The notes under the pieces are model-generated. The model saw only the letters and a list, made by a program, of their open reading frames with translations, ran no database searches and had not been told where the DNA came from. Source: Methanococcoides burtonii DSM 6242 (lineage in GTDB: Archaea; Halobacteriota; Methanosarcinia; Methanosarcinales; Methanosarcinaceae). From it: a DNA stretch of 64,000 nt. Position 1 is the stretch's first letter, and every line of letters starts with the position of its first letter. The DNA lies in contig NC_007955.1 of the NCBI RefSeq assembly GCF_000013725.1, positions 2,015,579 through 2,079,578 of the forward strand, written 5' to 3'. The translations under genes and the position numbers were made by a program. Positions 20,950 to 41,770 of this stretch are shown here, in pieces.

Positions 20950-21184
20950 GTCAATGTATTTGAAGTGAAGGCATTTATATGTATTCACTTTTATTCACTT
21001 TACACCACTTCCGATGCCTGTATCCGTTTTCCGATGTAGTAGGGGATTCTCAGTAACAATGCGTAGTGTATCCATCTCAAAAGGTATGGGTGGTAGCTCT
21101 TGTCATATATTGCCAGGTACATTCAAGGTCGAGTGCCAGATTCACACTAAAAAATGTGATGCCAAGCAATTTTGCTTCTTCAAC

Positions 21185-21418
21185 TTAATCCTTTGTATCC
21201 TTGAGATATGTCTTTGTGAAGTATATTGTAAGAACGGGCAGGGCAACTAATAACGGGAAAGCTATGGCGAACATTTTTGAGATGTGTTATATTGGTGGGA
21301 TCGCTGAAAGGGCGGGTGTAGTGAACACTATACTCTCCCAGATAAAACTGGTCATCCAGATAATTAATGCATATCTCGTTGCGGAAAGTGGCCTATATGG
21401 AACATTGATCAACTGCGT
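21185..21418 (-). pseudogene. C-terminal remnant of a polytopic membrane protein
   Basis: On the minus strand two overlapping frames spell a membrane protein tail: VTQLINVPYRPLSATRYALI-IWMTSFIWESIVFTTPALSA then, after a frameshift, HISKMFAIAFPLLVALPVLT followed by IYFTKTYLKDTKD and a stop at 21185. Hydrophobic helices ending in a charged tail look like the end of a transporter or permease. No start or upstream part remains. The rest of the 555-bp gap between the isomerase and the aldehyde dehydrogenase holds only promoters and unexplained sequence. Confidence 0.5.
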
Positions 21419-39882: not shown

Positions 39883-40542
39883 TCATTTTCCAAAGCGACG
39901 CTGTCTTTTTTGGTAATCCCTTATGATCCTAAGTATGTCCATTCTTCTCAGACCGTGCCAGTTGACATCGGTAAAATAGAGTTCAGAATAAGCGGATTGC
40001 CATAGAAGGAAATTCGAAAGGTGCTTTCCACCTGCACGAATTATTATCTCGGGCTCTTCACGTACTGTCAAATGGGATTCTATGGTATTTTCATCGATGT
40101 CCGAAGGAGTCAATCTTCCATCTTTCACATCATGAAGAATGGAAGTGATCGCCTTTGTTATCTCGTTCTTTCCGCCAAACCCTACTGAGAAATGTACCCG
40201 GTGGGTTTCACCAACTTTATTTTCGATAAGCTCTCCCTTTTCGTTGTATATGTCGAATCCAACATTTTCGGACAAAGGGGCCATTATCTATTTCAATTCG
40301 TCTAAAAGCAGTGATACTATCCTTGTTTTTGCTTCTTCTTTAACGTCGAGGACATCCACGTAAATACTTATTATTTTTATATCAAGGGCAAAACACCATT
40401 TCAGGAATGCACTCAGTTTCTCTTTTCCGCTATCATCAAGCAGATCGGATTCTGAAAGTATCATTGTGATATGTTCTGGTCTTTGCCCCTGTTTCCTGTT
40501 GATTTGGCTCAACAAGTATTGTTCGTAGAGTGCCCTTATCAT
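39883..40542 (-). CDS. cis-prenyltransferase (UppS/NgBR-like) homologue interrupted by an in-frame UAG
   Basis: Two open segments lie in the same frame: 84 codons from ATG 40542 ending in DELK, an amber codon at 40288-40290, one ATA codon, then 133 codons ending at TGA 39883. Read through, the protein has 219 residues with the family layout: THITMILSES-type N-terminus, ISIYVDVLD, then FSVGFGGKNEITKA, IIRAGGKHLSNFLLWQSAYS, ELYFTDVNW and the C-terminal RxG (RRFGK). The N-terminal catalytic MDGN motif is replaced by ILSES, as in the non-catalytic NgBR-type subunit. Methanosarcinales decode UAG as pyrrolysine, so a full-length protein is plausible; a split gene or recent pseudogene is the alternative. 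It should serve glycosyl carrier lipid synthesis. Confidence 0.75.
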
Positions 40543-40582: not shown

Positions 40583-41770
40583 TTACTTTGCAGTTGAGAC
40601 TATCTTTACAACATCGCCGTTTTGCAGGTCATGCTTTTCTCCAAGTCTCATCTTTGTCTTCCCATCAACTGCATAGAGGAACCTGTTTCCGATATCGGTG
40701 TGGACGCGGTATGCCAGATCGTGTGGGGTGGAACCTTTCTTCATGAGGAAAGCATCAGGGAGCATTCTGTCGTTCTTGTCTGCCCATTTTCCTTCATCTT
40801 CCACCGGATATACTACTATCAGTTCAAGAAGGTCAAAAACAGCTCTGTTAATGCACTCCTGTATGCCGGCTCCACCGGTTCCTAGGGTGGTGATCATCTC
40901 TTTCAGGCTTTGCAATCCATTTTTCTGTGCTTCGCTGACCTTGTCGGAGATTATCTCGAAACCCATGTCTCCCGGGTTATAACTTATTATATTATTCTTT
41001 GCAGCTGATCTCAATGCAAGTTCTGCTGCAGCACTGGTGGGTACTACCATGATGTCAAGTTCTTCGAGAGCTTTTACGTTCTCTGCAGGTGCGACATCTA
41101 TCTTGTTGGCTGCTATCATCGTAGGTTTTGTGATGGCGCGTATGGTCTCACAAAGCTTTGCCATATCTTCATCTGTCCACTGGGTGCATTCTTCAGGCAT
41201 TTTGCAAGCAAGCAGGGCCTGACGTGCTTGGGATTCATTGACACCTGCACCCAGGAGCTGGTCTGAAACGGCCTGTTCCATCTTCATGCCTTCGGCCCTT
41301 ATCTTTCGTGAAAGCTTGTCCCAGTTCTTTTTTAGGATACCTGTCATCCACATTGCTATCTCGCGGTTCAGGAAGTTAACATCTTCCAGTGGATCGTGTT
41401 CTCCTATGTCCACAGGGTTTCCTTCGATATCTGTGCCACCGGATGCGTCTATTACGTGTATTATGGCCTGTGCCTGTCTAAGCTCGTCAAGGAACGTATT
41501 ACCAAGGCCGCGTCCCATGTGTGCATCGGGTACAAGTCCTGCGACGTCTATGATCTCAATAGGTACATACCTTATACCGTCCTGACAGTTACCACAGCGT
41601 TTATCCCGTTCTGTGCATGGGCAGACTGCCCTTACATAAGTTACTCCTTTGTTCGCATTGATCGTGGTGAACGGATAATTCGCTATCTCGACATCTGCAA
41701 GGGTAGCAGCTTTGAAAAAAGTTGATTTACCTGCATTTGGTTTTCCTGCAAGGCCTATGGTCATTGACAT
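40583..41770 (-). CDS. YchF/Obg-type GTP-binding protein with TGS domain
   Basis: 395 residues. G1 GKPNAGKST, G3 DVAGLVPDAHMGRG, G4 NKID. After Walker A it has PFTTINANKGVTYVR. An archaeal insertion with CPCTERDKRCGNCQDG supplies four cysteines, probably binding zinc. The C-terminal TGS domain (RVHTDIGNRFLYAVDG...GDVVKIV) is complete. Members associate with ribosomes. Located 40 bp upstream of the cis-prenyltransferase homologue on the same strand. Confidence 0.93.
   Translation of the reverse strand: MSMTIGLAGKPNAGKSTFFKAATLADVEIANYPFTTINANKGVTYVRAVCPCTERDKRCGNCQDGIRYVPIEIIDVAGLVPDAHMGRGLGNTFLDELRQAQAIIHVIDASGGTDIEGNPVDIGEHDPLEDVNFLNREIAMWMTGILKKNWDKLSRKIRAEGMKMEQAVSDQLLGAGVNESQARQALLACKMPEECTQWTDEDMAKLCETIRAITKPTMIAANKIDVAPAENVKALEELDIMVVPTSAAAELALRSAAKNNIISYNPGDMGFEIISDKVSEAQKNGLQSLKEMITTLGTGGAGIQECINRAVFDLLELIVVYPVEDEGKWADKNDRMLPDAFLMKKGSTPHDLAYRVHTDIGNRFLYAVDGKTKMRLGEKHDLQNGDVVKIVSTAK

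Follow-up and report, generated by a model that had tools for sequence, protein, structure and literature searches.

Methanococcoides burtonii is a methane-producing Antarctic archaeon. In the 64,000-nucleotide stretch of its genome that we analysed, positions 2015579-2079578 of contig C1 (hereafter the window), a gene of the cis-prenyltransferase family is crossed by an in-frame amber codon, beyond which the same frame continues. Does this TAG end translation and break the gene, or is it read as pyrrolysine (Pyl) within a single full-length protein? A preliminary description of the locus had proposed the latter. Here, we examine the gene and its product, the amber position in related genomes, the decoding machinery, and the behaviour of TAG in other genes of the organism.

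Gene structure and identity of the product

On the minus strand (40542..39883), a single frame of 219 codons is closed by TGA and holds a lone in-frame TAG at codon 85 (Table 1). An ATA codon (40287-40285) lies between the TAG and the ATG of Met87. The arrangement first described, in which two halves share one frame and are split by a TAG and one ATA, was confirmed from the sequence. When read through, the frame yields 219 residues that align without a gap, from end to end, with orthologues of the same length, and the earlier remark that the gene carries no other lesion is borne out. Homologous, constrained coding sequence flanks the TAG on both sides. As the 134 codons past the TAG are open, homologous, and constrained, the open continuation is, to judge by these features, not a product of chance.

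A GTPase gene lies directly upstream, and a GNAT acetyltransferase gene is convergent with the subunit gene. The ORFs of M. alaskense correspond in both size and order. Elsewhere in the window, a minus-strand frame at 21125-21355 is homologous to a M. alaskense ORF and contains two in-frame TAA codons, unlike the lone-TAG genes described below; it would represent either a decayed gene or a spurious frame.

Table 1. Features of the locus (window coordinates) and other genes with an in-frame TAG (C1 coordinates)
Feature	Position	Strand	Remarks
NUS1/NgBR-like cis-prenyltransferase subunit gene	39883..40542	-	219 codons + TGA, one in-frame TAG; PF01255 E=1e-30 when read through
ORF 1 of subunit gene	40542..40288	-	84 aa + TAG
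ORF 2 of subunit gene	40284..39883	-	133 aa + TGA
TAG, codon 85	40288..40290	-	GAG (Glu) in four closest relatives
Codons 1-84	40291..40542	-	Variant motif I without catalytic Asp; strands 24-30, 57-63; helices 37-52, 69-87
Codons 86-219 + TGA	39883..40287	-	All of the PF01255-matched region (113-218), C-terminal RFG (RXG); 5N:13S vs four relatives
ATG (Met87)	40282..40284	-	Two codons past TAG; possible re-initiation site; ordinary internal codon in Glu85 relatives
Obg/YGR210-like GTPase gene	40583..41770	-	Directly upstream of subunit gene, 40-base gap
2164-residue surface VWA protein	C1:1562373-1568867		TAG codon 893; constrained both sides
Second VWA-domain protein (family by eye)	C1:1513643-1515271		TAG codon 395; constrained both sides
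CrcB	C1:1500541-1500906		TAG codon 59; constrained both sides
UPF0058	C1:1862142-1862429		TAG codon 23; constrained both sides
Pab1020-type RNA ligase	C1:1849614-1850849	-	In-frame TAG codon 85
HerA-type ATPase	C1:1707748-1709034	+	TAG codon 350 in M. burtonii
DNA_pol_E_B (PolD small subunit) match	C1:1823705-1825423	+	In-frame TAG at a position shared with M. alaskense
Hexapeptide-repeat protein (gamma-carbonic-anhydrase-like by eye)	C1:1637289-1637918	+	In-frame TAG

Membership of the read-through product in the cis-prenyltransferase family was indicated by both profile and fold: in a Pfam search it matched PF01255 (Table 1), and it also matched cis-prenyltransferase structures, among which human NUS1 chains were found at E-values of about 1e-5 to 1e-6. 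Residues 1-84, searched alone against Pfam, gave no match. The protein had been taken at first for a complete UppS-like enzyme that keeps all family motifs in its C-terminal half. The RXG motif at the C-terminal end is indeed retained, as RFG; motif I, which is usually MDGNR and supplies the catalytic Asp of UppS, instead reads ILSES, a sequence that all aligned orthologues resemble at this point. Since the M. burtonii genome holds only two PF01255 genes, there is no spare copy of the subunit. The second gene (C1:28679-29347 region) encodes a separate, putative catalytic partner, with MDGNRR, including the motif I Asp, present and the C-terminal RXG absent. By these motifs, the protein is a non-catalytic cis-prenyltransferase subunit of the NUS1/NgBR type and not a catalytic UppS, and the motifs are split between subunit and partner as they are in heteromeric NUS1/DHDDS-type enzymes.

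An archaeal precedent exists in M. mazei, where MM_0618 assembles with its paralogue MM_1083 into a heteromer that probably serves the glycosyl carrier lipid (PMC8131916). Like NUS1/NgBR and the M. mazei pair, the M. burtonii subunit has the cis-prenyltransferase fold without the catalytic Asp motif, keeps RXG, and has an MDGNRR partner; unlike them, its gene has a UAG.

Codon 85 in relatives and selection on the gene

A family match was found in all 112 Methanosarcinaceae genomes searched, and among the orthologues listed from the 111 genomes other than M. burtonii none has a stop codon. Recurrence of UAG at this site, suggested beforehand as a check, was therefore absent from them all. Codon 85 is GAG (Glu) in the four nearest relatives, all at 92-93% identity (M. 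alaskense, M. seepicolus, and two MAGs). In more distant ones, E, D, T, I or L occupies the position, and the alignment has no gap there. Because the four closest relatives have GAG and the alignment is gapless, the TAG is, by this comparison, a one-base G-to-T substitution at a variable position and not an insertion. In an AlphaFold2 model (mean pLDDT 76; about 88 around residue 85), this residue belongs to the final turn of helix 69-87, which lies within a single domain. Thus, the suggestion that a residue had been inserted between two halves was not upheld; an ordinary column is involved, in which Glu has been replaced. Position 85 tolerates several residues, and Pyl in this place would probably be neutral, ending a surface helix.

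The spacing of TAG, ATA, and ATG would fit termination followed by re-initiation, in which ribosomes stop at the UAG and start again at the ATG two codons on, to give two polypeptides that assemble. However, Met87 is inherited and serves as an ordinary codon in the Glu85 relatives, no obvious Shine-Dalgarno sequence precedes it (by eye), and the break would fall inside the single-domain fold of the predicted model. We regard a gene split in this way as very unlikely. An error of sequencing or assembly, with GAG as the true codon, would be about equally improbable: the codon is one base off that of the relatives and is known from one strain sequence, but the genome is a single contig and the gene is otherwise without a lesion.

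Selection was assessed at sites at which M. burtonii departs from a state common to all four relatives. These counts, which combine changes on the burtonii branch with those on the branch shared by the four relatives and thus do not give the age of the TAG, comprised 8 nonsynonymous and 9 synonymous differences before the TAG, and 5 nonsynonymous and 13 synonymous differences past it, where about 71-75% nonsynonymous would be expected under neutrality (P 3e-5 to 2e-4). On this evidence, the segment 3' of the TAG is under purifying selection. Among the orthologues listed, only M. burtonii has the TAG, which may thus have arisen too recently for such an averaged signal to show that the gene is working today.

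A recent nonsense mutation would have left a young pseudogene or hypomorph, in which most ribosomes get no further than codon 84 and the truncated product is broken down. Such an origin agrees with the lack of TAG in all listed relatives and with the single change, GAG to TAG, that would suffice, as well as with an amber introduced in M. acetivorans, which was read through only 20-30% (PMC2933860). The absence of any further lesion, the lack of a spare copy, and the strong constraint past the TAG speak against it, and we consider it unlikely, though the least improbable of the alternatives to pyrrolysine.

Pyrrolysine machinery and TAG codons across the genome

The M. burtonii genome contains a tRNA-Pyl with the anticodon CTA, and PylS, PylB, PylC, and PylD each scored above the curated NCBIfam cut-off. 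The genes are clustered near C1:2.186-2.191 Mb, so that the search for pylTSBCD recommended in the preliminary description recovered the complete set. With a dedicated tRNA and its charging and biosynthesis enzymes at hand, we consider it highly improbable that a canonical tRNA for Gln, Lys or Tyr, acting as a near-cognate, reads the UAG instead of tRNA-Pyl, even though several residues are tolerated at position 85. Decoding as pyrrolysine would take place in a cell with one release-factor homologue, and UAG in such archaea is regarded as both sense and stop; pylB of M. burtonii itself ends in a terminal TAG (PMC2933860). No PYLIS-like stem-loop was detected 3' of the UAG (z = -0.86), and this element is reported as not required (PMC9499178, PMC2933860).

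Stretches of M. burtonii amounting to about 0.8 Mb, under a third of its single contig of 2,575,032 bases, were set against about 0.78 Mb from M. alaskense, a sample that is largely collinear with it at about 90% identity. A gene was included if it was a coding-like ORF with one internal stop in M. burtonii and if, on either side of that stop, its changes were few or biased to the third codon position. Stops close to the N terminus were left out, being attributed to incorrect start choice that lengthened the ORF upstream. Among the lone TAA/TGA candidates that passed this filter, three looked by eye like antisense frames and one like a misplaced start.

Within these 0.8 Mb, the lone internal stops of constrained genes that have a sense codon in M. 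alaskense were TAG in 7/7 cases and never TAA or TGA. The seven genes are those of the cis-prenyltransferase subunit, both VWA proteins, the RNA ligase, HerA, CrcB, and UPF0058. The codon-usage-weighted chance of this outcome is 0.001-0.004, a figure that is indicative only because the filtering was partly done by hand. The median distance to the next TAA/TGA was 67.5 codons for TAG-ended ORFs vs 15 for TGA-ended and 14 for TAA-ended ORFs. Several TAG-ended ORFs were found to end at internal TAGs of conserved genes, including those of MtbB, MttB, the PolD small subunit, and the hexapeptide protein; MtbB and MttB, the positive controls, showed the same pattern. TAG terminates 20 of the 457 conserved ORFs, and some of these are true ends, such as that of pylB.

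The position of the TAG differs between close species. In the HerA gene, codon 350 is TAG in M. burtonii but sense in M. alaskense, and codon 82 is TAG in M. alaskense but sense in M. burtonii. Seven of the eight Methanococcoides sequences read share the position of the RNA-ligase TAG, for which M. alaskense has Gln, and the match holds at least one TAG in 10/11 genomes. For the PolD small subunit, a TAG was also present in the match from genome G023. The TAG of the hexapeptide protein is confined to the burtonii clade: all five genomes of the clade have it, and the six other Methanococcoides lack it.

The restriction of such interruptions to TAG is unexpected of plain pseudogenes, and random sequencing errors would not prefer TAG to TAA or TGA across genes. 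The bias is also found in genes that lack an ATG placed as Met87 is, which argues further against re-initiation. From the sequences compared, pyrrolysine reading appears to extend to many other M. burtonii genes. The subunit gene, introduced as one of few candidate Pyl proteins beyond the methyltransferases, keeps its candidacy but is no isolated rarity in this genome.

Discussion

We put at about 0.8 the probability that the codon-85 UAG is translated as pyrrolysine, giving one full-length protein of 219 residues from an intact gene. This is the explanation originally proposed, and it is the best supported, owing to the presence of pylTSBCD, the purifying selection past the TAG, the confinement of interruptions to TAG, and the shift of the TAG in HerA. 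The frame, the residue in the relatives, the selection, the pyl genes, and the TAG bias are observed directly; the incorporation of Pyl, its efficiency, its neutrality, and the pairing of the subunit are inferred.

Under the proposed mechanism, PylB, PylC, and PylD would make pyrrolysine and PylS would charge tRNA-Pyl with it. Pyl-tRNA(Pyl) would then read codon 85, and in the resulting 219-residue protein Pyl would replace Glu where a helix ends at the surface. The G-to-T change would have occurred in the M. burtonii lineage as a substitution that was probably functionally neutral, and would have been tolerated because UAG is, on this proposal, largely a sense codon in the organism. The subunit would pair with the sole other cis-prenyltransferase to produce the polyprenyl carrier lipid.

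Two kinds of Pyl protein offer a comparison. MtmB, MtbB, and MttB likewise have a single in-frame UAG served by the same pyl machinery, and the latter two were found in the sampled genome. In these methylamine methyltransferases, Pyl is catalytic and its site conserved, while the subunit site is variable and its UAG private to M. burtonii: same-site conservation was not seen among the orthologues listed from the 111 other genomes. Such conservation marks the class of functional Pyl and is not required for neutral Pyl. It is also no trait of the tRNA-His guanylyltransferase Thg1 of M. acetivorans, whose amber is readable as Pyl, which was physically observed, and is inessential for activity (PMC2933860). 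Like Thg1, the subunit is encoded by a housekeeping gene with a species-specific in-frame amber, and its homologues have a sense codon; the gene and the organism are others, and here Pyl is predicted from the sequence. By analogy with Thg1, the UAG in the subunit gene is an extension of a known phenomenon. Kivenson et al. (Science, 2025) reportedly described a general "Pyl code", under which every TAG codon is translated as pyrrolysine in certain archaea, M. burtonii among them, and such a code predicts a genome-wide TAG pattern as seen in our M. burtonii sample. If that report lists the subunit gene, the case is already known; the main texts of two published prediction studies name no prenyltransferase.

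Annotation with TAG as a stop codon would break up the subunit gene and others or class them as pseudogenes. If the pyrrolysine reading is true, an apparently single-copy gene for carrier-lipid synthesis would be Pyl-dependent, and the supply of envelope lipid would be tied to that of pyrrolysine. The gene-by-gene shifts of TAG position between close species would give a direct view of a codon as it switches between the roles of stop and sense. On balance, we lean towards a still broader picture, in which UAG in Methanococcoides is an ordinary pyrrolysine codon that drifts through housekeeping genes (those of the subunit, HerA, the RNA ligase, the PolD small subunit, and others), and growth would depend on pyrrolysine beyond the use of methylamines.
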